DNA of 55,457 nt, from positions 1-55,457 of the forward strand of contig JAUYGZ010000020.1 in NCBI GenBank assembly GCA_030690415.1. The letters are read 5' to 3'. The position numbers and the translations under genes are program-made. The notes below the pieces were generated by a model. That model was not told where the DNA came from and did no database searches. It worked only from the letters and a program-made list of their open reading frames with translations. Origin of the DNA: a bacterium (GTDB lineage: Bacteria; Patescibacteriota; Gracilibacteria; JAUYGZ01). Positions 1 to 20,494 of the stretch are shown piece after piece. Within the stretch, counting starts at the first letter, position 1, and every line of letters starts with the position of its first letter.

Positions 1-118
1 GGATTAGCCAAGTGGTCCCGCTCTACGGGATGAAGGCACTATCCGACTCGTTCCTCGTCGCATATTGCTCTTCATAAGGCATCCCGCCTTGGCGGGACAT
101 TCCGGGGGTCTCTCTCAT
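1..118 (+). pseudogene. Broken tRNA-Gln-like copy (cut by window edge)
   Basis: Positions 1-16 match the acceptor/D-arm part of the intact tRNA-Gln at 132-206. An unrelated stretch (17-74) follows. The tRNA-like sequence then resumes at 75-110 with AAGGCA, a 16-bp palindrome (82-97, TCCCGCC-TT-GGCGGGA) where the anticodon arm should be, and a degraded variable/T-arm region. It cannot fold into a tRNA. It may be a decayed duplicate or one boundary of the element around the GIY-YIG gene. Confidence 0.55.
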
Positions 119-6866: not shown

Positions 6867-9800
6867 TTACATCGGACGTCCATCGGGAGAATTATCCGGA
6901 GTTTGTGGGGTGAGGTAACGTGAAAAAATATCATCCAGATCATACTGCATGAGGGTACCAATCTGGTTTTCGTAAGTATAATTTTCTGAAATATAAATCT
7001 TCTTAATGGTGTCTTCCCAGTTGTCCTGAAGCTGCTGAAGGACGTGTAGCTCCAGATGGGCAAGCTGGTATTGGTAAATGGAGTTCTTGACACTGTCTTT
7101 ATTGTAAACTGCATTCACCTCATTCATTTCTTTGAAGATGAAGTCCAGAGCCTTTTTATTTTGAGGAACCTCAAAATATTGTCTTTTTGCAGATTCCCTT
7201 AGTCGCTGAATTTTTTCAGACCCATTTTCCCATTGCTCAAGAATACGATTTTCGTACAAAACAGCGTCAAAGCTTTTTGTTACCTTTTGAGTCGCGTCCA
7301 TTGCCTCCTTTAAGACATTCCCGGAAACAGTCTGCCCCACCCTACCGTTTAATTTGAGTAAGAGGTTGGATATCATTTCACCAATCTCAAAAATATTCTT
7401 TGCGAATTCTCCAACACTGGTGAGCGCAGCTCCTGTCCATTGCCTCTCCGGAAATACTTGCGATCTCAATTGTTTTTCCCAATGCGTATCTCCTCCTGTG
7501 ACATACTGATCCGTTTCACTGGTCAACCCTGTTGACCTGGCAGAAGCATTTCGATCTAGACTTCCTACATTTCTTTCTTCCTGTGTTGGAAATGAGGCCT
7601 CATTGAAAGTATTACCTTCGAGCTGATCCAGGATGAGCTGATATTGCTCCAAATCCTGGAGAATATACCGCAGTGTCATGAGATCTTCCTCAACAACTGT
7701 ATGAGATTCGTTTGGGCTCATAAGATGAGCCATTGGGCTTGCGTGAAGGTCCAGGCTTGAATATCGGGACAACGCCCACCATTCGAAGTGGTGAGTCTGA
7801 AGATCCTGGACACTGAGTTTTTCCCAATCCTTCTTCTGAGTCAGCAGCGCGATCTGCCTGATCACGGAAATACTCAGGGGAGGATTGTTTAACAGCGCAA
7901 GACCCTTTTCCCGTTGATCCGGAGTGAGAGAAAGGTACCGTGAAAGATCCTGAACTCCGCTACTCATGATTTTTTCGAACCGGTAATAAAAATCTCTCAT
8001 CTGCTCCTGGTTCTTTCCTTCGAAGTATCCGAATGCCGTTTCAAAATCAGCGGAATTCATGATCCCCTCTACCTTATTCTTTTTACTCGAAAGACTTCCC
8101 TGAAGCATCGTGTCGAACAACGCGTAGATGTCATCCAGCTCTCCGCCCTCATCGTCCAGGCTCACTTTTTGGTTCTTAAGCTCCTCCATTACACTGGTGT
8201 AGGACAGACACAGCATCGTCATCTCTTTTGCCATGATGAGACTTTCTTTCGTTTTGTCTGATGTTTTTTTCAGCTCATCCCGGGATTGATCAAGCGAAGC
8301 GCTCAATCTCTCATGATACTGAGCCGCGTCGAATCGAACCAGCTCCCCATGCTCTTCCCCCACTACCCCCCGATGCTCACTGAGCCAATGGGGGTAGGTG
8401 ATCTGGTCGTCTCTCATGGCGTGCTCGATGATCTGCAGATCCACATTTTCCAGGGTTGGAACACTTCCCGGAGCCTTTGTATTGATCCCATTGTCAGTAC
8501 ATCCATAGACCAGCCCCCTGTGAATAATCATCGACATCTGTCTCATGTAATGCTCCCGATAGAGTTCCTTGTATCCTGAGTCAGGGAATTGAAGCAAATA
8601 AGCTTGCAATTCGGCTTCCTTTTTTTCCATGAACCTTCCGACCCCGGGAGTGTTCTTAAACAATTCTCCGCTGCTGAAGCGATTGAGCTGGCTATCGACC
8701 TCCTGATCAATTTTTTTCCAGTCGTCGATTCCATTCACTGCAGCATTGTCGAACCAAACGTAGCTGAGAAAGCTGTCGTCAACAGCCGCCTTATTGAGAA
8801 AGGCTATCAGGTAGAGTTGTTTCATTTTACTGACCTGCTCTCGTAGCTCGAAGACCTGCTGAAGCTCTGAAGCGTTTTCTGCTCCCTGGATCTTCAGGAC
8901 CAGCTCAATCATTTTTCCGATATTTGCCCTCATCCTGCCGCCAAACGAATTTTTGTGCGGGCCGGTGATCCCGTGTTCCGGATCATAAATATAGTCGTTG
9001 AGCTCATCGAGGTCTCCCACCATTCCCCAGACCGACCTGTCCAGTGCTTTGTACCGGTCTTGTTCCAGTTTCCCTGAATCATACAATTGTTTCAGTCGGG
9101 CTCTTAACAGATCTTTCGCGGTCTTCAGCACTTCATCCTGTCTTGTCTTCTCCAGTTCCGTGTTTTCAAGGGTTGCTTTCAGGTCGTTGTCGAATTCAAG
9201 CCCATCGAATTGGACAGGATTATCAATATTAATATCAGAGTTCTCATTTTTGAGAAACCATGGTATCTTCCCGTCCGGCAAAGGCCCGATCTGCCAGGCG
9301 TGGATTTCTTCTCCAACCAATTTATAGGCGAAGAGGCCGATGTTACTGAAGCCAGCGAGATACCCCTCCTTGATGAGTTCCGGCGGTAGGATGACATATC
9401 CGGCTTCCACCTCTGAAAGCTGCTTAGAGCCCCCTTCCAGGATTTCCCTGAGTTTTTTTCTAAACTGGCCTCTTTTTCCCCCTATATCGGATCCCGAAAG
9501 CATTTCTTGTTGTTCTCTGAGAAAGGCGGCATAATCCTCCCCAATATTCGCTATACCTTTGTTCGATTCCTCATCGTTGGGGATATAGAATTTGTCATCT
9601 TCTCGTTCGAACATTCGAGGTGACATCTTTTCACAGACTTCAGCCAGGAATTCAATGATGAGAGGATTATCCTCCCAGGAAGGGACCCTTTTGCCCTCGT
9701 ACCAGTCTATAAGCAGTTGCTCCCGTTGTGTTGGAGATGCTGGAGCCTCAAGAATAGGCGCATCATATCCCTCTTTTCTTACGAGAATATTTCCACGAAT

Positions 9801-12800
9801 GAGTTCATCCACTACCCATTTGCTAAACGTGAAATCAGGAGCCATGTCTCCAAAAATTCCAATGTTCACGATTTTCCACTCCTTTCCATCGAAATAAATT
9901 CCCTGGTCCAAGGCTTTATCAGGTGAAAAATACTGCTGAATCAGAGCCTTCTCCATGGGCCCTCGGTAACCAAGCGCCCTGGCAAACGAGTAAAGTCCCT
10001 GAGTTTCCTGCTGTTGTGAGGCATTGAAGTTGAGCTCAATTTCACTGTCACTGATGGCGTATTGAACCAGTCCTGCTTCATCTTTTCCAAACACAATCCC
10101 TTGGCTCCGTTCTTTTGAAAGACTCCGAACCCATTCATGCACCCGTTCTTCATCAAGCTTGTCCATCATGATCACCGGCTGATACGGTACTCCGTACACG
10201 GCCTCGTAGTAGCGGAAGCAGAAGGCGAAGCAGTCATTGAATGCAGCACTTACTTCAGGAGCAAGTCCTCTCACCGGCTGCCCTGCAAACTGTTGTTCCA
10301 ATGCCAGCAGGGTGTACATCTCGTCCATGCGGGATTCGAGAGCGTGGCGGGTGGAGGTGGCTTCAACCTGTTCTTTTTTTTCGGAACCGGGAGCTTCAAA
10401 AAGGGAACCGGAGAGAGGAAAGGCAGAGATGAGACCGGCGTAGTTTTCTTGTTCTTCAGCGCTCGCCAATTCTAAAAATTCTTTCGGCTCTTTATGGTTT
10501 CGCTCGATCAGTTTTTGTATTCCTTCCGCGCGGGCGTGGCCGGTTTTGTCGAGGGCTGAATATTGGTTCAAGTTGAATTCAGTCGCCTGTTGAAAATATT
10601 CTTTCTGGAACTCAGATACCAGCGTTTCGTGCTCAACTTCGAGTGGATCCTCTTCGTCCGCATACTCCTGAAAGGCTCTATAGAATTCGCTTGTTTTCTG
10701 AACTGCTTCGTCGGGAGAAGCAAGCTTTTTGAGTTCTTCAACTTCCCTGCTCAGCTGAGCCTTATCCTTTTTGATCAACGCGACAAGGCGGGCCTGCGTG
10801 AGCAGATGGTTGACTTCAATCGGGCTCTTGGGATCAAACTCAGGCTTCGCACTCTCAATAAAATCCAGCTCTTGTCTGATCATTTGAGCTGCTTCTGATT
10901 TTTTCTCTTCCAATGTATTAGTGTCATAAATTTCATCCATGAGAGATTTTCCTTCCTCCATCTTCTCCACGCCCCAGGATTGCAAAAGTAATGCGGTAAA
11001 ATAGTACTTTCTGAGTTCTTTATTATTGAGAAGGGTAACTCCATCAGGGGCATATTCAATTCCGGGAATCCAGCTCAGATTTTTCCCAATCCAGTCTCCA
11101 TCTGACACCCCGTGCTCCATGCAAACCAGCTTAATAAGGTTTTCACGACTGCGCTCGGTAGCCCAGGCCTGCGGGGATCGAGTACGTCGTTCAGCCGCTT
11201 CAGAAGCGGTGTTCCCGAGGCTCTCATAAAGCAATTGGAGCGCTACGAGAGGGAGCGCACCCGGGATTGTTACTCCTTTCCAGGCCATAAAAAGCCCCAT
11301 GCCAAGACTCACTCCGCTTTGAGCGTATCGCTTCGTCCAAATCCGTTCATTCAAGACTGCTATTCTTTTCGGATCTTCAACCTTCTCCATTTTACTCACC
11401 ATCTCTTCTATCTCATTGGCTTCATACTGATAGAATAAGACCACTGCGAACTCGACCGCTACCCCCACGGCGGTGAGTCTTCCCAACAACCTTGATTGTC
11501 TCGGAAGAGTCTCTTTCGCCGACTGCTTGAGCGTGGCGACCATTACCTGTCTTGTCGCGTCATCAGCGCAGGTAGCCAATTGTTTTTTGCAGCCTTTCAA
11601 AAACTTGTCCCACATTTTCGGCTGAAGCTTTACGGGCTCCAGGTCAGAAAGAATCTTGACGAGATCGTCGGCGTGTTCGGCATTCTGGCGCCCGAGGGCT
11701 AAAAGGGCTTCCCGTCCCTGCTTTGCGGCAAAGGCTTTGAACAGGGCTTTTCCTTCCGCGCTGAGAGCGTTTTCAAAAGTTCGTATGCCTTTCCAGATTT
11801 TGACCATGCGAGCCGTTTCCTTCCCTCTTGTCCAGGTCGAGGCATGCCAAACACTCCTGGGGGTTTCTAACTTAGTTAAGAACTTTTCCGCGTCTTCCAC
11901 GGAATTAATGTTGAGCTGCTTCATCGTTTCGGCAAGCTCGTCCAGCTGGGCGCGATAACCCTGGGCACCTTCCATCACCGCATGCTGGTATGTTCTTGCA
12001 GCTTGTTGCTGCTCTGACAGACTGCGTCGTAGATGCCACCATCTTTGCCTGAAGGCCGGTGTTTCCGCGAGTCTCGCGGCTTCGTGGAGCGGCGTACCCC
12101 CCTCCTTCAAGACTTTTCCCGCCGTCAATAAATCATCCGCCAACCGTATCCCACCTGCTTTTTCGATGTCCATCAGCTCTGAGGCGACCTTGAGACGGCT
12201 ATATTTTTCAGCCCCAAAAAACTTGCTGCCGACAGCATCGGCTATGCTCCCCGTATATCCCTCTTTCACCGCCTTCATGAGGCTTACTCCCAGCTTTCTG
12301 CTTCTCTCAGCATATACTACCGCCCCCAAGCCGAGTGATACCCAAAAAATTTCTCCTCCAAAGAGTGAAGAGAGTACTCTCTCCGCTGTCCCTGGAGCTG
12401 AAGCCACGAAACAATCCCACCACGTTTCCGGAGGCGTCCCTGGGGCGGCGTAATATTGAAGAAGAAAGGCTATTCTTTCATCACAGCGTTCCTTCACGGA
12501 CTCAGTACTGGTGGATTTTTTGAGCTCATTGAGCTTGTCGATAGCAAGGGTGAACGTAGAGATATCTTCTTTTGCCCATGCCTTTTGGCCTCTATCGATC
12601 TTATTCGCAAGGGTCACCGCAGCGAGGTAGCTTTCGCGGCATGTTTTTTCGAGAGATTCATGGGTTTCAAAAGCCGCGAGAGTATCACTGGATTCAGCTT
12701 CAAGCCCTTGCTTTGGCTGGTCAGGAAGTTTCCCTGGTTCCTCTTGTTCATCTTTTCCTTTTTCCCCCTTCCCCTGATGCTGCTTCAAAAACTCCTGTTC

Positions 12801-13217
12801 GTTCCAGTATTGGTATCCGATATAGCCTGCCGCCGCTGCTGAGACAGCCGTGAGCCCCCACTTCGCGCTACTACTGATTTTGTCCCGAAAAAACCAGGCT
12901 CCAATGGCTATGATCGCGGCTCCGGCCAGAATGATTTCTTTGTTCGCGTAGAGCTTGTCCTGCCATTCCGGGGTTTCCAGACGTTTTTCAAATTCCCCGA
13001 TCGCCTGTTCGGCAAGTTTTTTGAGTCCCTCATGATTCTTGGTATCCAGTTTTTTCAGCTCCTCCACCGCTTTCTTCATGGTTTCCGGCGTCGTGGCTTT
13101 TTTTTTCAGTTCTTCAATGAGCTGGATCGTTTGGACTTGCGTCTCGCTCAATGTCGGCACATCGATCTTCAATGCGGTGTATTCAGGTGTTTGTTTTGGT
13201 TTTTCTTGTGTGGCCAT
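6867..13217 (-). CDS. Giant coiled-coil membrane protein, function unknown (2,116 aa)
   Basis: The ATG at 13217 is preferred. A TTG at 13232 would overlap the upstream stop by 4 bp and adds only five residues. Features: a helical N-terminus (about 25-90), a two-helix membrane hairpin (about 94-109 and 119-137) like the one in the neighbouring 1,313-aa protein, a charged linker, a further hydrophobic segment near 285-305, then two more around residues 590-610 and 645-680. After that come more than 1,300 residues of mostly helical, charged sequence with no recognised enzyme motif. The N-terminus lacks the K-R-x-V-F-Q signature found in four neighbours. It sits 11 bp downstream of the 1,313-aa gene and is surely co-transcribed. 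A structural or surface/scaffold role is possible, but nothing in the sequence defines it. Confidence 0.85.
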   Translation of the reverse strand: MATQEKPKQTPEYTALKIDVPTLSETQVQTIQLIEELKKKATTPETMKKAVEELKKLDTKNHEGLKKLAEQAIGEFEKRLETPEWQDKLYANKEIILAGAAIIAIGAWFFRDKISSSAKWGLTAVSAAAAGYIGYQYWNEQEFLKQHQGKGEKGKDEQEEPGKLPDQPKQGLEAESSDTLAAFETHESLEKTCRESYLAAVTLANKIDRGQKAWAKEDISTFTLAIDKLNELKKSTSTESVKERCDERIAFLLQYYAAPGTPPETWWDCFVASAPGTAERVLSSLFGGEIFWVSLGLGAVVYAERSRKLGVSLMKAVKEGYTGSIADAVGSKFFGAEKYSRLKVASELMDIEKAGGIRLADDLLTAGKVLKEGGTPLHEAARLAETPAFRQRWWHLRRSLSEQQQAARTYQHAVMEGAQGYRAQLDELAETMKQLNINSVEDAEKFLTKLETPRSVWHASTWTRGKETARMVKIWKGIRTFENALSAEGKALFKAFAAKQGREALLALGRQNAEHADDLVKILSDLEPVKLQPKMWDKFLKGCKKQLATCADDATRQVMVATLKQSAKETLPRQSRLLGRLTAVGVAVEFAVVLFYQYEANEIEEMVSKMEKVEDPKRIAVLNERIWTKRYAQSGVSLGMGLFMAWKGVTIPGALPLVALQLLYESLGNTASEAAERRTRSPQAWATERSRENLIKLVCMEHGVSDGDWIGKNLSWIPGIEYAPDGVTLLNNKELRKYYFTALLLQSWGVEKMEEGKSLMDEIYDTNTLEEKKSEAAQMIRQELDFIESAKPEFDPKSPIEVNHLLTQARLVALIKKDKAQLSREVEELKKLASPDEAVQKTSEFYRAFQEYADEEDPLEVEHETLVSEFQKEYFQQATEFNLNQYSALDKTGHARAEGIQKLIERNHKEPKEFLELASAEEQENYAGLISAFPLSGSLFEAPGSEKKEQVEATSTRHALESRMDEMYTLLALEQQFAGQPVRGLAPEVSAAFNDCFAFCFRYYEAVYGVPYQPVIMMDKLDEERVHEWVRSLSKERSQGIVFGKDEAGLVQYAISDSEIELNFNASQQQETQGLYSFARALGYRGPMEKALIQQYFSPDKALDQGIYFDGKEWKIVNIGIFGDMAPDFTFSKWVVDELIRGNILVRKEGYDAPILEAPASPTQREQLLIDWYEGKRVPSWEDNPLIIEFLAEVCEKMSPRMFEREDDKFYIPNDEESNKGIANIGEDYAAFLREQQEMLSGSDIGGKRGQFRKKLREILEGGSKQLSEVEAGYVILPPELIKEGYLAGFSNIGLFAYKLVGEEIHAWQIGPLPDGKIPWFLKNENSDINIDNPVQFDGLEFDNDLKATLENTELEKTRQDEVLKTAKDLLRARLKQLYDSGKLEQDRYKALDRSVWGMVGDLDELNDYIYDPEHGITGPHKNSFGGRMRANIGKMIELVLKIQGAENASELQQVFELREQVSKMKQLYLIAFLNKAAVDDSFLSYVWFDNAAVNGIDDWKKIDQEVDSQLNRFSSGELFKNTPGVGRFMEKKEAELQAYLLQFPDSGYKELYREHYMRQMSMIIHRGLVYGCTDNGINTKAPGSVPTLENVDLQIIEHAMRDDQITYPHWLSEHRGVVGEEHGELVRFDAAQYHERLSASLDQSRDELKKTSDKTKESLIMAKEMTMLCLSYTSVMEELKNQKVSLDDEGGELDDIYALFDTMLQGSLSSKKNKVEGIMNSADFETAFGYFEGKNQEQMRDFYYRFEKIMSSGVQDLSRYLSLTPDQREKGLALLNNPPLSISVIRQIALLTQKKDWEKLSVQDLQTHHFEWWALSRYSSLDLHASPMAHLMSPNESHTVVEEDLMTLRYILQDLEQYQLILDQLEGNTFNEASFPTQEERNVGSLDRNASARSTGLTSETDQYVTGGDTHWEKQLRSQVFPERQWTGAALTSVGEFAKNIFEIGEMISNLLLKLNGRVGQTVSGNVLKEAMDATQKVTKSFDAVLYENRILEQWENGSEKIQRLRESAKRQYFEVPQNKKALDFIFKEMNEVNAVYNKDSVKNSIYQYQLAHLELHVLQQLQDNWEDTIKKIYISENYTYENQIGTLMQYDLDDIFSRYLTPQTPDNSPDGRPM

Positions 13218-13228
13218 GGCAGACTTTA

Positions 13229-16200
13229 TCAAGCGGCTGGAGAAGCTGCTGGGGTTTCTTTTTGTTTGAGATACTTCACAAACCCGTCGTAAACTTTTTC
13301 GGGAAGTTCGTAGAGAGAAATGCTGGCGTAATCGTTCAGGTCTTGTTCTGGTTTCTCCATCTTTCCATTTTTCACTGAAACAGAGAAAGCATCGATGGAT
13401 GGCGGAAGTGCAGGGCTTCCTGTATCAACCAAAAATCGGTTGTACTTGGCGATGTAAACATATCTGAGTCCATCTATCTTCGTCTCATAATAATAGCTAT
13501 TCTGTACCCAGTTGACGGGTTCTGTGGGTATGAAGTCAAATCCATCTCCGTTTTTTTTTGTGATGGTTCTTGCAGTGTCATACCAGCGACCTCCCACGAA
13601 AATTTCCTCACCGTAGCTACCGGGTGGTGTTTTTTCCTTCTGAATGCGGTGCAATTTCCCATCATTTGTTCCTTTGAAAAAGAGACCGGAAAAAAGGAGA
13701 TCATCGAGAGTCGTTCCACTGGGCAGGTTGAAACTCTTGATGAAGTCAGCTTCTTTTCCGTTTGTGAATCCTGCAGCTCCGATATCCAGGCTCCCATAGT
13801 CTTTTGCCAATTGTACAAGGAGAGCGCTTTTTTCGGCTTGTTCAAGTTTTCGCGGGTTTTGATTCATCTGGTTCTCGAGAACAGTGCTCATCGCTCTTTC
13901 GAGGTAGTAATGGATGATATTCCTCTTCCCTTTTTCCGGATCGCTGATGTTTTCCTTTTGTTTTTGATGGATGTAGTCATTGATTTGCTCGAGGCTGATT
14001 GTCGCTCCATCCTCAACTTTGAGATCAGTCTTAAGTTTTGCCAGGGCTTCCCCCTCTGGCATGCCACCGTACCCACCCGTGATAAAGTGGACATAAGCCG
14101 CTGACTGCTTGATGTATTCATCCAGGCGTCCTTTTATTATGGGATCCTTTTCCTCCTTTGCCGCCTGGCTGCAGAGTAAATAAAATTTCACGATCTCGTC
14201 ATATTTTCCGAGGCTGTTGAAGAAGTATCGAATTTCGGGATCCAGGGTCGCATCCGCGGCTTCCTGCTTCTGGAACTGATAGAGCTGGGCAGCGTCGGCC
14301 ATTTTTTTCAGTGCATTTCCCAAAAGAGGTTTGATCTTTGTGTACTCCAAAGTTTCACTTGCGGCATACGCCATGGTGTGGAGTTGGTTCTCATATGTGC
14401 CGTTGGTCAATGTGCTGTCTTTAGCCTCTTTTCTCTTCTGGGTCTCGACGCAAACTTCCGCAAGCACTATGGCATTATTTAATATGTCAAGATGGCTATC
14501 TTCTTCACCCTCAGCAGCAACTAAACGGTCGAACGGATATCCTTCTTTCCCTCCTGTAAAGCTGTTGTAGGCCCTTATCATAATTTCCAGCCCCTTGATT
14601 ATCTCCGGCTCCGTGAATCCCCTCAGCTCCATTTCCTGTTGGCCGATGGACTTCATGATTTTTACCCTCATCTCTTTTCGGACATTTTTTTCCGGTTCAT
14701 TTTCGCGGTTATTTGGATCGCCCACGACATATTCTCTAAGAGCCTTTCCGAGATCATTGTCCTGAGCTGCTATCGGCCCGAGTATTTCTTCAGTCGCCCA
14801 GGTGAGTGCTCCCCGTTCATTTCTGTCCGCGTAGAGGGGAAGGAGATGCATGAGTTTATCGACGGGGACCTTGTCCGTGGGAAGATCTTTAAGATCAGCC
14901 AGGATGGATGCATTGTCCGCCCACTTTGCCCCACGAACCCTCGCTTCATCGATCGCTGCCATTATGGCTACGTGCCATATTGCCTTACCAGTTAGTTCAA
15001 ATGGTCCCTTTGTCGTTGCCATCGCTGTTGCCATCCTCGTCCCCCTCCAGAGCTCCAGTGCTCCACCAGTAACATTGATCCCCAGCGATGCGAAGCGGTA
15101 TCCGATCGATTCTGTACTCGTTTCCCTGGGCCGGTTACTGAGCATTTTGTAATCCTGTAGAGCAACTGATGCTGCCCTGTAACCGAAGTACACCCCGATC
15201 CCCAAACCAATGGCACCTTTCGCGACTCCAGGTCCGCCATATTTATCTAAAAAAGCGCTAATTCTCCCTTGTGAAGGATTGGTCATTAGATTGTCAAACC
15301 CTTTAAGGATTTTCCATGGCAGCACTACTGCCGAGGTCCCGATAGAAAGGATACCTCCAAGTCCGATGAGCTGATAAGCGGCCATGGTCGCAAGACCTCC
15401 CACCATGAGTTGGTCGAAAAGATCCGGGTAGAGGAGTTCTTTTGGAATTTTCAAGCTCTGGTGAAAGATCACCTCCATCCCCATGTGCTTGTCGTAGAGA
15501 GTGTTGAGAGCCTGTTTTTTTCCTGTGCCTTCTTTGAGAAAGGTGTTTTTGGAGGCTGTGAAATCATTTTCAAGATCGTTGATCAGCTCTGCCGTCCCCT
15601 GCTGCTTGCCCAGCATATCAGTATAATTCTGTGAAAAGGCCTTGCAGTTGTCGAGTACCAGGTTGAGCCCTGCAAGGCGGGCCTGAAGAGCTTCTTTGTC
15701 AGTAGCACTCATTGTTGTGTCTGCTTCCAACGCCTTCAGTTTCGCATGCTCATCCTTCACTTCTACCTCTCTCGTCACAAGAAAGGTGAGGGTTCGCCCA
15801 AAGCGCCCCAATACATCGGTCTGGACTTTTTTCATGTAGTCCAACCTGGTGAGCGTCTTCTCTGTTCTGTTTTCGACGACTGCCCTGATAGGATTTTCAC
15901 GATTATTAGCTCCGGCTGGTAATTGATCATTGGTAATCTGCTGCTCCAAAAACCATCTCTCTGTAATAATGTCGTGAATTTCCGGTGGGACTTCATTCGC
16001 AAAAGCTTCGTTGAGGGAAACTTCTTCAAGCTTTTTCACTATTCCGTCTAACAAATCCTGACTGGGGGAAGGACTCTGTAGTTCTGTTTTGATTGCATCA
16101 AGCTGTTCCTGAACAAGTTTGGATGATTTCGGTTCTGTCTTCTCCATTCTGTCGATTGTTCTCAAAATCTGAACTTTTATTTCGGCCTGTCCGTTGATCT

Positions 16201-17170
16201 CCGCTTCTTTCTCATAGGAGCTCATATAGATCGTCGATTTCCCTGATTTATAATCCCTCAAAAGGCTGATCAGGTTTTGATACTCGACGGCGTATTCAAT
16301 CCCGGGATCGCGAAGATCCATAGACCGCTCCGCTGCTTCCGCCTGCTGGTATTGGGTCAAGCCAGGCACTGATCTTTCGTACCAGCTGCTCACCTTCGCG
16401 GCATATTTTCCGATTTCCGTGTCCCCGGCGATTCGGTGAATGGCTTCCGCTGCTAGACCCACTCCCGCAAATCCCGCTCCCACTTTGGCGGTCGTCCAGG
16501 CGGTTGATTTCATGCTTTCCCATAAGCTCCCTGATGTAAACCAGCGGTAGAGGAGGAGCCCTCCGACAGCCGCGCCAGCGATGAGGGTGAACTGGGCATT
16601 TTCTTTGGTAAATTTTGGTCCTCCCTTGACCAGCCCCGCTGCCTCGGTTTCAATTCGCTTTTGAACGTTATCGAGATCTTCAAGAGTCACACCACGTTCT
16701 TCTTGTTTTATTGACCGAATCCTCTCCACCAGCCTCTTCTTATGCTCCATCGCCTTCTCCTTCGGCGACATGGTTTTGCTGTATCCCATCACGTCATCCA
16801 TCGTGCCCCGGGTCCACTCCGTCACCTGATCCAAAACCCCTGCCGCCTTTTCGCCAATTCCTTTTTCTTCTCCCTGAGGAATACTTACCTCCGCCTTGGG
16901 GGCAATCGCCTCCGTGTGACTTCTGTAAAAGTCTTCGAGCGTCGTATCGATCTCAAGTTTATCAAGAAGTTGCTTTTCAAGTCCGGCTGTTCTTTCTGCA
17001 TCGTTTTCCAGCTTCCACATCAGCTCCCTCACGGTCATGTCCTCAAGAGCTTTATTAGCAGCAGGCTCTGCTTCAACCGTTTCCGATTTTTCAGGAGCAG
17101 ATGTTGGATTCTGAAACACCAGCCTCTTCTCTCCGATAGCGTCGTCCGATTTTTTACAGGGGAATTGCAT
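13229..17170 (-). CDS. Giant membrane/coiled-coil protein with KR-x-VFQ N-terminus (1,313 aa)
   Basis: Start placed at the ATG at 17170, because the longer frame to 17251 runs into a duplicated non-coding leader element. The N-terminus reads MQFPCKKSDD followed by GEKRLVFQ (13-20), matching signatures in the 385-, 488- and 145-aa proteins of the cluster. Residues about 40-190 are charged helices. A two-helix membrane hairpin lies at about 194-210 and 222-243, aligned in character with the 2,116-aa protein. A second hydrophobic block is rich in Gly/Ala (around 600-730). The C-terminal 250 residues look more beta-rich (GGRWYDTAR, then YYYETKIDGLRYVYIAKYN). No known family recognised. It lies upstream of the 2,116-aa gene by 11 bp and probably forms a two-subunit unit with it. 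Confidence 0.85.
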   Translation of the reverse strand: MQFPCKKSDDAIGEKRLVFQNPTSAPEKSETVEAEPAANKALEDMTVRELMWKLENDAERTAGLEKQLLDKLEIDTTLEDFYRSHTEAIAPKAEVSIPQGEEKGIGEKAAGVLDQVTEWTRGTMDDVMGYSKTMSPKEKAMEHKKRLVERIRSIKQEERGVTLEDLDNVQKRIETEAAGLVKGGPKFTKENAQFTLIAGAAVGGLLLYRWFTSGSLWESMKSTAWTTAKVGAGFAGVGLAAEAIHRIAGDTEIGKYAAKVSSWYERSVPGLTQYQQAEAAERSMDLRDPGIEYAVEYQNLISLLRDYKSGKSTIYMSSYEKEAEINGQAEIKVQILRTIDRMEKTEPKSSKLVQEQLDAIKTELQSPSPSQDLLDGIVKKLEEVSLNEAFANEVPPEIHDIITERWFLEQQITNDQLPAGANNRENPIRAVVENRTEKTLTRLDYMKKVQTDVLGRFGRTLTFLVTREVEVKDEHAKLKALEADTTMSATDKEALQARLAGLNLVLDNCKAFSQNYTDMLGKQQGTAELINDLENDFTASKNTFLKEGTGKKQALNTLYDKHMGMEVIFHQSLKIPKELLYPDLFDQLMVGGLATMAAYQLIGLGGILSIGTSAVVLPWKILKGFDNLMTNPSQGRISAFLDKYGGPGVAKGAIGLGIGVYFGYRAASVALQDYKMLSNRPRETSTESIGYRFASLGINVTGGALELWRGTRMATAMATTKGPFELTGKAIWHVAIMAAIDEARVRGAKWADNASILADLKDLPTDKVPVDKLMHLLPLYADRNERGALTWATEEILGPIAAQDNDLGKALREYVVGDPNNRENEPEKNVRKEMRVKIMKSIGQQEMELRGFTEPEIIKGLEIMIRAYNSFTGGKEGYPFDRLVAAEGEEDSHLDILNNAIVLAEVCVETQKRKEAKDSTLTNGTYENQLHTMAYAASETLEYTKIKPLLGNALKKMADAAQLYQFQKQEAADATLDPEIRYFFNSLGKYDEIVKFYLLCSQAAKEEKDPIIKGRLDEYIKQSAAYVHFITGGYGGMPEGEALAKLKTDLKVEDGATISLEQINDYIHQKQKENISDPEKGKRNIIHYYLERAMSTVLENQMNQNPRKLEQAEKSALLVQLAKDYGSLDIGAAGFTNGKEADFIKSFNLPSGTTLDDLLFSGLFFKGTNDGKLHRIQKEKTPPGSYGEEIFVGGRWYDTARTITKKNGDGFDFIPTEPVNWVQNSYYYETKIDGLRYVYIAKYNRFLVDTGSPALPPSIDAFSVSVKNGKMEKPEQDLNDYASISLYELPEKVYDGFVKYLKQKETPAASPAA

Positions 17171-17203
17171 TGGATTTTGATTTATTTTTGTTGATATAAG
17201 TAT

Positions 17204-17315
17204 CTGGGGGTTTGGGGGTAAAACTGGTCTCTCGGATGATATAGGGTACAAGGTATGCGATCCGCCGCGGCGGATTTCCCCCCAATGGTTTTGGTCCTTT
17301 TGCCATCAAAAGGAC
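17204..17315 (-). promoter_or_regulatory. Structured leader element, copy A
   Basis: 112 bp almost identical to 18018-18130. In the mRNA sense it contains a 9-bp hairpin GTCCTTTTG-ATGG-CAAAAGGAC, the 16-nt perfect palindrome ATCCGCCGCGGCGGAT, and G-rich/C-rich tracts that can pair. The element ends 33 nt upstream of the 1,313-aa start codon. Candidates are a cis-regulatory RNA, a small RNA, or a mobile repeat. Confidence 0.65.
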
Positions 17316-17330
17316 GAAAGAGAAAAAAAC

Positions 17331-17981
17331 CTATCTGCCCCCTACCTCTTTTATCACCTCCAAATCCCTCATATACCCCTTCAAAGTCTCCTGCTTTTCC
17401 TTTTCAACTTTGATCTGCTCGATCAGCACCTGCTTTTTGAAATTTTCTTCAATCTCCCTTGCGGATTTGTACACGTCCGCGGAAAAAGACCGGAGTTTCT
17501 TCACCGTGTCTTCAATATCTTTTTCCTGTCCGGCGAACTTCGGATCCGCTTTCAGTCGTTCAACCGATTTTTCGAGCTTTTTCATCCCGTCCGGCCCCAG
17601 TGCGATCAGGAAAGCCGTCAGCTTTTTGGGGTCTTTAGCCGCCTCGTCTAGAAGTTCCTGGGTCATACGCTCAGCTTCTTTTTTGTCGACCCCCTCCCCA
17701 GCCACCTCCTCTCTCTCCACCCCCATCTCCTGATACAGTTTCTCCATGTCATTTTTAACCTTCTCATCCCGCGCGACGCGCTCTTCAAGGCCTACATGAA
17801 TGGCTTCTTTCTGTTCCTTTTCGATCTTTTCCAAGTCCCTGTGCAATTCTTTCACCGCACTTTCCTCCATCTTCGGCAAAGCAAAGATGAGTTTCTGCTT
17901 TTTCTCATCCGGCAAAGAGGATTTTTGAATGAGTTTGGCGACTTGCGAGCGAAGGTTTGTTTTGGACATAGAAGATAACAT
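17331..17981 (-). CDS. Short helical protein of the cluster (216 aa)
   Basis: 216 residues from 17981 (a second ATG lies at 17969, four codons in). Nearly all helix: charged, Lys/Glu-rich, no membrane segment, no signal peptide. Residues about 20-60 (SLPDEKKQKLIFALPKM, then EELHRDLEKIEKEQ-like sequence) resemble N-terminal regions of the 191-, 147- and 99-aa proteins. The structured leader element B ends 36 nt upstream of this start, the same distance within 3 nt as copy A from the next gene. No family recognised. A coiled-coil partner of the giant proteins is a plausible guess. Confidence 0.75.
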   Translation of the reverse strand: MLSSMSKTNLRSQVAKLIQKSSLPDEKKQKLIFALPKMEESAVKELHRDLEKIEKEQKEAIHVGLEERVARDEKVKNDMEKLYQEMGVEREEVAGEGVDKKEAERMTQELLDEAAKDPKKLTAFLIALGPDGMKKLEKSVERLKADPKFAGQEKDIEDTVKKLRSFSADVYKSAREIEENFKKQVLIEQIKVEKEKQETLKGYMRDLEVIKEVGGR

Positions 17982-18017
17982 TATGGATAATATAAAGATT
18001 TATTGATGATGTAAGCA

Positions 18018-18130
18018 CTGGGGGTTTGGGGGTAAAACTGGTCTCTCGGATGATATAGGGTACAAGGTATGCGATCCGCCGCGGCGGATTTTACCCCCAA
18101 TGGTTTTGGTCCTTTTGCCATCAAAAGGAC
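18018..18130 (-). promoter_or_regulatory. Structured leader element, copy B
   Basis: 113 bp, differing from copy A (17204-17315) by one substitution and one indel. Here the outer arms TGGGGGTAAAA and TTTTACCCCCA form a perfect 11-bp pair enclosing the ATCCGCCGCGGCGGAT palindrome, next to the GTCCTTTTG/CAAAAGGAC hairpin. It lies between the promoter at 18169 and the start at 17981, so it should be part of the 5' leader. Confidence 0.65.
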
Positions 18131-18168
18131 AGAAAAGAAAATGCCTAACTCTCAACAGTTTTCCCCTT

Positions 18169-18174
18169 ATTATA
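18169..18174 (-). promoter_or_regulatory. Extended -10 promoter upstream of leader element B
   Basis: Minus-strand TATAAT preceded by CTGC. The base 17 bp upstream gives only a weak -35 (TTCCAA at 18192-18197). Predicted transcription start near 18162, giving a leader of about 180 nt that contains element B. Confidence 0.55.
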
Positions 18175-18223
18175 GCAGAAAAAGCCCCTTTTTGGAAGGG
18201 AGAGAAGGTTCAATAATAACGGT

Positions 18224-18799
18224 TTATGAGCCCTGATTCTCTAGGACTTTCTTCGCATCATCAATCAGTGCTTGCAGCTCCTCCGACTGCGTCCTCATAC
18301 GCTCAACGTCCTGAGCCAAAGCCTTCTGCTGTTCTTCCTCCTGTTCTTTTTTGAAGGCGGCTTTTTGAAGTCGGGCTTCGTGAAAGAAGCGGTCGAACTC
18401 AACCTGGCTCTCGGGAGAGGCTTTCAGACCCTCATGGATCACGGCTTCCAGTTTGGAGAGAAAAAAATCGTCGCTCATGGCCAGAAACTTCGCGAGTTTG
18501 TCGGGATGCCTGAAGATGTTTTCCATCATTTTGAAAAAAGTAACGACTTCTTCCTTCCCGATCTTCGGCTTTTCTCCCGGCGCCTGATCTGAAATCAGCC
18601 GTTTGCTGCTCTCCTGCTCCCCTACTTTTTCATTGAGAATTTTGAGCGCTTCTTCATCGTGGTCGCGAATGAGCTCAGCCATATGCTGGAGCTGGATATC
18701 GCTCATCCCTTTCAGCTCATTCAACAGCCGGTCCATGTCTTCTTTTTTGAGCATGAGGCGCTGGATTTGTTGGGCGAGAAGGGGGGTAGAGGTGGGCAT
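18224..18799 (-). CDS. Short helical protein of the cluster (191 aa)
   Basis: 191 residues, helical and highly charged throughout, with no membrane segment. The N-terminal 50 residues (LLAQQIQRLMLKKEDMDRLL, then GMSDIQLQHMAELIRDHDEEA) share a spacing of hydrophobic residues and an M-S/E-D/E motif with three other short cluster proteins. The C-terminal 60 residues are a coiled coil rich in Q/E/K. Located between two genes of the same strand with no recognised function. Confidence 0.72.
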   Translation of the reverse strand: MPTSTPLLAQQIQRLMLKKEDMDRLLNELKGMSDIQLQHMAELIRDHDEEALKILNEKVGEQESSKRLISDQAPGEKPKIGKEEVVTFFKMMENIFRHPDKLAKFLAMSDDFFLSKLEAVIHEGLKASPESQVEFDRFFHEARLQKAAFKKEQEEEQQKALAQDVERMRTQSEELQALIDDAKKVLENQGS

Positions 18800-18815
18800 G
18801 GGGAGTGGGGATAGG

Positions 18816-18843
18816 TTGTTGGTTGTTGGTTGTTGGTTGTTGG
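18816..18843. repeat. TTGTTGG tandem repeat (4 x 7 bp)
   Basis: Four 7-bp units directly upstream of the 191-aa gene. In the mRNA sense this is a CCAACAA tract without G, located 17-44 nt before the start codon. Confidence 0.8.
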
Positions 18844-18857
18844 GTATTAGGTTTTTT

Positions 18858-18975
18858 CTGTGTCATTGCGTTGCGACCCCCTTTTGTCACTTCGACTCCG
18901 CTCAGTGCATGCATTCCGACCGACCCGAGTGGAATCCTGGGTGGGGGGGAGCGGAGGAATCTCTTCCTCACGCAT
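18858..18975. repeat. Interspersed repeat of the GGAATCTC type
   Basis: Contains CACTTCGACTCCGCTCAGTG and GCGGAGGAATCTCTTCC, phrases characteristic of interspersed intergenic repeats seen in many environmental bacterial genomes. Imperfect inverted segments (ATTCC with GGAAT) are present. It fills the gap between the 120- and 191-aa genes. Identity as a repeat family is from general recognition, not from a second copy in this window. Confidence 0.4.
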
Positions 18976-18977
18976 TC

Positions 18978-19340
18978 TTACGTAGACGTACTACTTGGGC
19001 TGCTAGCTGCTGAAGTTGTTGTAGGAGGCTGGAAATACTTCTTATTGAGAGCCTCCAATGCGGCTGTTGCGGGTTCTACCTTCGGAGTTTCTGTTGAAGG
19101 AACAGTGGCGGCTGAGCTATCCGGCACTTCAGCTGGGATTAAGGTCTCTAAGTATGTTTTTGCGGCTGCGGCTGCCAGGGTTATTGTCTTTGCCTTTTTT
19201 ACATCAACTAGAACTTTAGCCAGGCTGCTCCTTAGTTCTTTTTCTTTTTCTTTTTCTCCATCTCCTTTTTTAATTTCCGAAACAAGGCTGTCGATCGTTG
19301 TGCTTAAATTTGCTGTAATATCCGTTTTTGCTTCACTCAA
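18978..19340 (-). CDS. Small helical, Ala/Thr/Ser-rich protein (120 aa)
   Basis: 120 residues starting at a TTG that overlaps the stop of the 385-aa gene (TTGA), which suggests translational coupling. An N-terminal helical region (1-60) and an alanine-rich helix (AAAAAKTYLE) precede a low-complexity Pro/Thr/Ser/Ala tail, probably disordered. No family recognised. Its position and coupling suggest it works with the 385-aa protein. Confidence 0.65.
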   Translation of the reverse strand: MSEAKTDITANLSTTIDSLVSEIKKGDGEKEKEKELRSSLAKVLVDVKKAKTITLAAAAAKTYLETLIPAEVPDSSAATVPSTETPKVEPATAALEALNKKYFQPPTTTSAASSPSSTST

Positions 19341-20494
19341 TTTTTTTCTTCTTCGTTGAGTCTTTTAGTTTCCGTCTCATGAAAAGAGAGAATTTCCTGA
19401 ACAAAGTCCGTGTGTGTATCCGAAGTGGGCGTCTTAGTAAAAGCCGTGATGAGATCTTCACCGACTAGCCTTGCTTCCGTAAATTTACGTCCCAAAGCCA
19501 AGGCATCTCTCTCAAGAATGCTTGCAATATCCCTTGGATTTCCTGTTTTATCTTCAACCTGCTGATGTCGAATGAGTGCCTCAATCAGTTTAACCTTTGT
19601 TTCAGGGGCACTAATCCCTCCAAAACAGTCAAAAACTTTCTGAGCTTTCGGACTCAAATGCTCCAAATATGCTTTTATCTCAGGTTCATTCCCTTTTTCA
19701 AAATCAACCGCAGTACCATTTGCATCTGGTGTTTGGATTGAAAATACATTAGCAGTCAGGTTTACAATACATTTCTGATCCGCCCCCAGTACCTTTCTTA
19801 TCACAATCAATTTCCCATCTTTAGCCAAATCCTGAGTCTCCGGAAACGAAATATTTTCTAAACTTTTTTTCTCCGTTTCTTTTCTTGGAAATGCCTCTTT
19901 TACTTCCGGTGGTTTTTCACCTTCCTCTTCCTTCTTCTTGTCGACCGCCTCAGGCTCTGCATCGCTGAGGCCAAAGACGTAACTTATACCCTGAATGTAC
20001 TTTATGAAGTAATCAAAAGAGGTCGAGAAAACTTCGAGAAAATCTTTTGATTGGAGGTCTTTTAAAATCGTACTAAGCCCCTGTATGCTAGGAGTCATTA
20101 ATGCTAATTTATCGCCCCAACCTGCTGCTTCACGAGCGGTAAGCATTCTGATTTTATAGGCTTCATCACCCATTTCTTTCTCGAATGTTTTTCCCTTTGA
20201 TTGTTCTTCGATAGCAGTGGTAATGGTTTTGATCTTCTCGACCAGGTCGTCATTTGCTTTGGCATTTGCTTCTGTTTTAGGAAGCTTTTGAAGATCCTCA
20301 ACAAGCCCCTTCGCCTCCTCCACCTGACCTTTGAGCTTTGCTTTGAGTGCTGTCTTTTCTGTTTCCGTAGCTTCTGTTGTGGTCTCTCCTGCGGGGATTT
20401 CAATTTCTGCTGGCGCTTCTTTCGCATCCTGAAACACCCCCCTCTTCATCAGAAGGCTGACATCATACCCGGCACGGCAATGAAAAGGGAGCAT
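19337..20494 (-). CDS. Cluster protein with KR-x-VFQ N-terminus (385 aa)
   Basis: 385 residues. The N-terminus MLPFHCRAGYD followed by LLMKRGVFQ (14-22) matches the 488-aa protein (P-x-C, G-Y, L-L-x-K-R-x-V) and, more loosely, the 1,313- and 145-aa proteins. A Glu/Thr/Lys-rich coiled region (25-110) follows. An amphipathic segment around 145-175 (FDYFIKYIQGISYVFGL) may touch membrane. The C-terminal half (about 220-370) seems globular, with KLIVIRKVLGADQKCIVNLTANVF. No enzyme motif seen. A clear promoter lies upstream and the 120-aa gene is coupled downstream. Confidence 0.78.
   Translation of the reverse strand: MLPFHCRAGYDVSLLMKRGVFQDAKEAPAEIEIPAGETTTEATETEKTALKAKLKGQVEEAKGLVEDLQKLPKTEANAKANDDLVEKIKTITTAIEEQSKGKTFEKEMGDEAYKIRMLTAREAAGWGDKLALMTPSIQGLSTILKDLQSKDFLEVFSTSFDYFIKYIQGISYVFGLSDAEPEAVDKKKEEEGEKPPEVKEAFPRKETEKKSLENISFPETQDLAKDGKLIVIRKVLGADQKCIVNLTANVFSIQTPDANGTAVDFEKGNEPEIKAYLEHLSPKAQKVFDCFGGISAPETKVKLIEALIRHQQVEDKTGNPRDIASILERDALALGRKFTEARLVGEDLITAFTKTPTSDTHTDFVQEILSFHETETKRLNEEEKN

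Follow-up and report, generated by a model that had tools for sequence, protein, structure and literature searches.

Two nearly identical elements, A and B, lie shortly before two start codons in a contig of a gracilibacterial genome, and raise the question of whether such a sequence is a cis-acting RNA that controls the genes of a cluster or a mobile repeat that landed in their leaders. The original prediction, made from the letters of the window (the whole stretch of 55,457 nucleotides that was analysed), allowed for both. Our analysis makes it probable that A and B belong to a non-autonomous, interspersed, REP-like mobile repeat, some 120 nt long, whose recognised form is single-stranded DNA so folded that one stem (P1) carries a triplex and a second (P2) is pseudoknotted. 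Behind this reading stand multiple copies at unrelated sites and in different orientations, presence or absence of the element between paralogues, an architecture common to members of the phylum and to phages, and conserved pairing.

Structured bacterial repeats are usually described through their palindromes alone. In this family, correlated change across a phylum and among phages also preserves two relations of another kind: a mirror relation, which would place a third strand, and a loop-to-linker complementarity, which would form a pseudoknot. For triplex repeats, evidence from living cells is weak (PMC4666352). Correlated change of this kind offers evidence from evolution that what matters in the cell is a DNA strand in its folded form, which may include a natural purine triplex. 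The element also points to a novel mobiliser in bacteria of reduced genome, and its covariance model makes it searchable.

Structure and setting of copies A and B

By global alignment, A (17204-17315, 112 nt) and B (18018-18130, 113 nt) are separated by a single substitution and a 1-nt gap, as first described, and a whole-genome search excludes chance similarity of the pair (E = 2.6e-50). Their flanks, said to differ, are indeed unrelated except for a common TGATNTAAG about 12 nt upstream; this shared sequence and the R1 covariance model together define a somewhat longer conserved unit for each copy (Table 1). The 9-bp hairpin GTCCTTTTG/CAAAAGGAC and the 16-nt palindrome ATCCGCCGCGGCGGAT are present in both copies, as claimed. 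The perfect closing stem of B, here named P1, is real, and it extends over 12 bp, TTGGGGGTAAAA/TTTTACCCCCAA, rather than 11; in A it is damaged by that copy's substitution and indel. The B-type P1 is backed by compensatory changes in copies C, E, and F, and appears in the DNA fold centroid. R1 and R2 also match the complementary strand at these sites (window 17293-17356, for instance), which reflects the self-complementarity of P2; such matches were left uncounted.

The distances of 33 and 36 nt to start codons given in the original prediction are right, although the arrangement is antisense: the ATG codons, at 17170 and 17981, both belong to genes on the minus strand, so that the G-rich 5' end of the plus-strand element faces them. 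A run of large minus-strand ORFs (2121, 1340, 216, 191, and 385 aa) occupies window positions 6867-20494, with the 216-aa ORF flanked by A and B; none of these five has a Pfam match.

Table 1. Copies of the element in the genome and parts of copies A and B. Positions without a contig prefix are those of the window; pairings and third strands are predicted.
Feature	Position	Strand	Remarks
Copy A, full conserved unit	17192..17316	+	R1 149.8 bits, R2 75 bits
Copy A, purine tract G1	17206..17210	+	proposed reverse-Hoogsteen third strand; mirror of G2 family-wide
Copy A, 3-nt loop TTT	17211-17213	+	follows G1
Copy A, P1 5' strand	17212..17223	+	includes G2 (17214-17218); partner 17275-17285; 1 mismatch
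Copy A, conserved core CTGGTCTCTCGGATGATATAGGGTACAAGGTATGCG	17224..17259	+	22-nt core near-invariant in six subfamily-1 copies
Copy A, 16-nt palindrome ATCCGCCGCGGCGGAT	17260..17275	+	optional apical hairpin, without counterpart in E, F
Copy A, pseudoknot triplet TGG	17286..17288	+	predicted pairing with loop CCA 17303-17305
Copy A, hairpin P2 GTCCTTTTG-CCAT-CAAAAGGAC	17294..17315	+	compensatory C-G to A-T in copy F
Copy B, full conserved unit	18007..18131	+	R1 155.8 bits, R2 83.7 bits
Copy B, purine tract G1	18020..18024	+	then loop TTT 18025-18027; mirror of G2 family-wide
Copy B, P1 5' strand	18026..18037	+	includes G2 (18028-18032); partner 18089-18100; 12/12 pairs
Copy B, conserved core	18038..18073	+	22-nt core near-invariant in six subfamily-1 copies
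Copy B, 16-nt palindrome	18074..18089	+	optional apical hairpin, without counterpart in E, F
Copy B, pseudoknot triplet TGG	18101..18103	+	predicted pairing with loop CCA 18118-18120
Copy B, hairpin P2	18109..18130	+	compensatory C-G to A-T in copy F
Copy C	C23:84117-84241
Copy D	C8:43547-43673
Copy E	C22:7078-7195		in frame inside RHS gene
Copy F	C30:31285-31404	minus
Subfamily-2 copies (three)	C27:57808-57982, C27:58542-58720, C9:74600-74773		core ~97 nt

Copies across the genome

A covariance model, proposed at the outset as one way to check the element, was built and searched in this genome and its relatives, and it found both extra copies and distant relatives. The assembly (1.45 Mb in 30 contigs) holds nine copies in two subfamilies, six in subfamily 1 (A to F) and three in subfamily 2. 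The core CTGGTCTCTCGGMTGATATARGGTAC is common to all six, and a 22-nt core varies among them at two positions only. The cores of subfamilies 1 and 2 alike contain a motif resembling GNTGAWATARGR. Relative to genes, orientation is mixed: A, B, and the copies on contigs C23 and C8 are antisense, the C30 copy is sense, and the C22 copy is intragenic. Most of the other intergenic copies also lie shortly upstream of start codons in this streamlined genome; distance and orientation are not fixed among them, and the downstream genes are unrelated. Copy D, for example, sits antisense within a ribosomal-protein operon, in the gap between two genes read as adk and map, while copy E is embedded in a 1892-aa RHS ORF whose frame is kept.

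Copies at unrelated loci and in both orientations are what the original prediction had named as the mark of a simple interspersed repeat. Its other refuting sign, homologues without covariation, is not what we find. The P1/P2 structure is real and covaries, so this is a structured repeat rather than plain junk.

Shared architecture and correlated change

Members of the family follow a common plan, (T)GGGGGT - TYT - GGGGG.. - core - ..CCCCC - NNN - TTTTGG - hairpin with loop N'N'N'; that is, purine tract G1, a 3-nt loop, a second tract G2 that opens P1, a variable core, the C-rich strand of P1, a triplet, TTTTGG, and P2. P1 stems are 7-14 bp long, have their own sequence in most members, and contain few G-T pairs (15/338). 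Within subfamily 1, compensation in P1 is seen between CTGGGGGTAAAA/TTTTACCCCCAG and CTAGGGGAATCAC/GTGATTCCCCTAG, and subfamily 2 behaves likewise.

The triplet is complementary to the P2 loop, in exact register, in 15 of 18 phylum haplotypes against 2.1 expected, and in 22 of all 34 haplotypes against 3.2 under permutation; the 34 were compiled by hand from the sequences, with phage matches that fail the pairing included. Among 36 phage matches picked solely by their P2 hairpin, 13 have at least 3 complementary nucleotides against 6.6 (p=0.005), and 5 have at least 4 against 0.8 (p=0.0008, permutation test). Triplet and loop change together, as TGG/CCA, CGC/GCG, CAG/CTG, AAC/GTT, GAC/GTC, GGC/GCC, CAC/GTG, and TAC/GTA; phage contigs L133 and L134 show extended forms, AATGAC/GTCATT among them. 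In genome G038, both AAC/GTT and GAC/GTC occur, and mixed forms do not.

G1 is related to G2 as a mirror image rather than as a direct repeat: the mirror fit is 5.39 of 8, against 4.72 (sd 0.11) in permutations and 3.53 for the direct relation. A or T faces A, and G faces G, which matches the needs of a purine-motif triplex, and the order of parts is that of class I (third-strand purine, purine, pyrimidine). Such a mirror is what would be expected, from sequence, of an intrastrand triplex of the purine motif. Because G1 is plain GGGGG, and thus uninformative, in most members, the signal comes from few informative copies, such as GGGAG-TTT-GAGGG in G038 and GAGAGGGGG-TTT-GGGGGAGAG and GGGGTGAGG-TTT-GGAGAGGGG in phages. 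The run of triads is just 5-6 in most copies. The element falls outside the ITxF loop limit of 1-6 nt, with a first loop of 3-5 nt and a second "loop" that is the core itself, 11-97 nt long.

DNA or RNA fold

With DNA parameters, the centroid fold of B consists of P1 and P2, at a z score of -3.5 (-4.4 for copy F). Under RNA parameters, the preferred fold of the plus strand is instead a rival pairing, rich in G-U, with poor covariation. RNA is reported not to form triplexes of the purine motif (PMC4666352). Taken together with the rarity of G-T pairs, these points favour, but do not prove, that the element folds at the DNA level.

Relatives in the phylum and in phages

R1 recovers this architecture from further families (G002, G031, G003, G025, and G038, the last with 18 copies), and a gapped pattern of the architecture adds G522, G537, and G626, with 0 matches for its reversed control. 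R2 reports 23 of 287 phylum genomes at E<=0.001, a count that includes many weak matches, provisional below about 40 bits; G000, G522, G537, and G352 are strong. Phage contigs carry the architecture too, so that both distant bacteria and phages are recognisable carriers. The invariant core is not common to these relatives. A search of 288 genomes from the class (287 others) for the core, allowing 3 mismatches, matched the genome of origin only. A DNA-level search of 60 relatives also returned only that genome, because the core diverges. The exact core pattern gave chance matches only, as checked by eye, in GTDB contigs and IMG/VR. Plasmids searched with element B gave no match; a phage relative as query gave a distant plasmid match of partial coverage, between an IS3 transposase gene and finO. 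A literature search on such repeats in this phylum found nothing relevant, and a search for the sequence strings in papers found none.

Several arrangements in these relatives deserve mention. Phage contigs L133 (3180-3580) and L134 (6540-6980) carry the element as inverted pairs about 80-130 nt apart that enclose an AT-rich palindromic spacer, with two pairs per contig in a REPIN-like composite. Viral contigs L093-L097 have a mirror-symmetric TTTGAGCGNAGCGAGTTT, containing a GCGNAGC mini-hairpin, in the apical part of similar stems, and the motif is also seen in the G038 and G537 cores as TTTGAGCG...AGCGAGTTT. The combination TTTGAGCGNAGCGAGTTT plus CTTTTGGTTACTTTTGG may be common in Bacteroidota, which offers no more than a lead; in a search of viral contigs, patterns for the two parts match 6 and 15 contigs.

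Evidence for mobility

In an RHS paralogue on contig C9 the element is missing and a different palindromic repeat takes its place, with both frames open; protein identity between the paralogues is 79% just before the insertion site and 58% after. This element-free paralogue rules out the element as an original coding part of the RHS gene. Since the paralogous site holds another repeat, there is no clean empty site, and the region is best viewed as a repeat-tolerant linker. At this site the paralogue (L196; G000:C9, ~10069-10277) carries a tandem palindromic repeat, GTCATTGCGAGGAGC...GCAATCTC, twice and in frame. Of the features of a MITE, terminal inverted repeats are missing within single copies, and no target-site duplication could be made out; the 5' boundary is fuzzy. 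A TGANATAAG-type sequence is a putative target.

Genome G038 contains 18 near-identical copies in unrelated intergenic sites, variable in orientation and position, one of them between genes that read as the ribosomal protein genes rpsH and rplF. Left and right flanks of these copies are drawn from several other repeat families. In two cases (L063 at G038:C6:38856 and L064 at G038:C6:57947), P2 breaks off within its loop, and both copies continue from there into one and the same foreign repeat, GAAACTCTGATAAA.

Nine copies in both orientations, together with an in-frame RHS insertion absent from the paralogue, identify an interspersed mobile repeat rather than a leader riboswitch, and so support the second of the two readings first offered.

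Proposed mechanism and alternative explanations

In the mechanism we envisage, the G-rich strand, when single-stranded (as lagging-strand template, or as phage or transformation DNA), would collapse into a compact DNA structure. In P1, the third strand would be G1, bound in reverse-Hoogsteen fashion (G1-loop-G2 ... C), and P2 would be locked by a short pseudoknot with the nucleotides preceding the T-rich linker. A trans-acting recombinase or transposase would then recognise the fold and copy or move the unit, and any effect on neighbouring genes would be incidental. A broader proposal, which we advance tentatively and think rather less likely than otherwise, is that the element represents a phylum-crossing class of mobile DNA whose recognition unit is a tertiary fold of single-stranded DNA (class I intrastrand triplex plus pseudoknotted hairpin), with a novel enzyme family as mover.

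A passive, fold-prone repeat, spread by horizontal transfer, recombination, and template switching during replication with no dedicated enzyme, would owe its covariation to quasipalindrome correction. Compensatory changes could partly stem from such correction rather than from selection on the fold, which also tells against the reading we favour. Pairing changes nearly always run from one Watson-Crick pair to another, with no intermediates, and the two chimeric G038 copies are broken exactly in the P2 loop, as template switching predicts, a junction that is suggestive of that process. Holder et al. saw no transposase remnants near comparable TM repeats (PMC4666352). We nevertheless consider the passive explanation rather unlikely, for one complex architecture is maintained across very distant genomes and phages, and palindrome correction does not yield a mirror (non-inverted) relation.

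An element of REP/REPIN type, mobilised in trans by a Y1 transposase (TnpA_REP/RAYT) that was lost from the genome or is missing in the assembly, would account for small palindromic intergenic repeats with single-stranded hairpins and for the inverted copy pairs in two rumen-type phage contigs. A Y1 gene does occur in 4 of 9 element-bearing genomes, but also in 4 of 11 element-free ones, no association over the 20. The Y1 domain (PF01797) is absent from the genome of origin, which is 98.8% complete, while control genomes give matches; and in G038, which has 18 copies, the sole RAYT-like Y1 gene lies between copies of another palindrome, GAGTTCGAACTC, likely its own REP (L103). On the plus strand of A, B, and their flanks there is neither a GTAG nor a CGTC tag. 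We therefore judge this origin unlikely. Integron attC core sites (RYYYAAC / GTTRRRY) are likewise absent from the plus strand of A, B, and their flanks.

That the element is a regulatory RNA, a riboswitch or protein-binding leader of the minus-strand genes, now appears very unlikely. It would fit the position of A, B, and most other intergenic copies near start codons, and a minus-strand transcript would fold P1 and P2 too; against it, orientation and spacing are inconstant, one copy lies inside an ORF, downstream genes are unrelated, Rfam gives no match at gathering score and none credible at a loose E-value, and the invariant core is missing from relatives that retain the architecture.

A scaffold RNA serving an RNA-guided nuclease (IS605/IS607-type omega/reRNA), or a retron- or intron-like RNA, is of the same order of size and would likewise suit a pseudoknotted, stem-closed, mobile unit of ~120 nt, but is highly improbable, since the nine element-bearing genomes contain neither a TnpB/Cas12f-like zinc-ribbon (PF07282) nor a reverse transcriptase, controls giving matches for both, and HEARO and RAGATH matches are none. 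Y1, reverse transcriptase, and TnpB are thus unsupported as movers by gene absence or lack of association; with no candidate gene supported, we infer the mechanism of movement of the REP-like repeat that we favour.

Comparison with known systems

Among described systems, the closest is the BoxC/PIT/TM intrastrand triplex repeat of E. coli, also present in more than 260 further prokaryotes (Holder et al. 2015, PMC4666352), for which no mover is known; it is associated with local genome instability, and stable formation in vivo has not been shown (PMC4666352). Both kinds combine a mirror-repeated polypurine tract, a 3-nt loop, and a C-rich strand into a potential purine-motif intrastrand triplex (PMC4666352), and both are interspersed, indifferent to orientation, often in inverted pairs, and with no associated transposase known. 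BoxC/PIT/TM repeats, however, are 34-37 nt long and of class II (Y-R-RH, C strand first) with loops of 3-6 nt, whereas the element has ~120 nt, class I order (RH-R-...-Y), and a 3' pseudoknotted hairpin; its core, mostly 30-97 nt between R and Y, exceeds the loop length of 1-6 nt allowed in that survey (PMC4666352). Copies do not fit the BoxC/TM consensus CCCTCNCCC-N3-6-GGGNGAGGG-N3-GGGNGAGGG (PMC4666352), the C-rich strand being 3' rather than 5'. The phage GAGAGGGGG-TTT-GGGGGAGAG also resembles synthetic PPRH (PMC8466063), two antiparallel polypurine mirror repeats with a T loop, but PPRH are designed oligonucleotides that target other molecules (PMC8466063), while here the C-rich target strand lies within the same element.

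Like REP/REPIN sequences with RAYT (TnpA_REP), the element is a short structured intergenic repeat, of a kind thought to be moved in trans, and forms inverted doublets in phage contigs; unlike them, it is ~120 nt long with two stems and no GTAG/CGTC tag, and this genome has no cognate Y1 gene. Its behaviour is that of a mobile repeat of REP type, yet it lacks the REP/RAYT features that were looked for. Rickettsia palindromic elements are structured repeats inserted in frame within protein genes. The in-frame RHS copy recalls them, although sequence and structure are unrelated and most copies here are intergenic.

Other repeats in the window

A tRNA gene occupies 132-203, and repeated stretches are found at window 75-110, 174-208, and 504-561. 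The 3' 35 nt of the tRNA and an upstream 36-nt palindromic stretch recur some 353-429 nt further on, an arrangement that is attachment-site-like or a partial duplication. An array of the 7-mer GGTAGGT closes the contig (window 55387-55449), and similar GGTTGTT repeats lie at 18803-18837.
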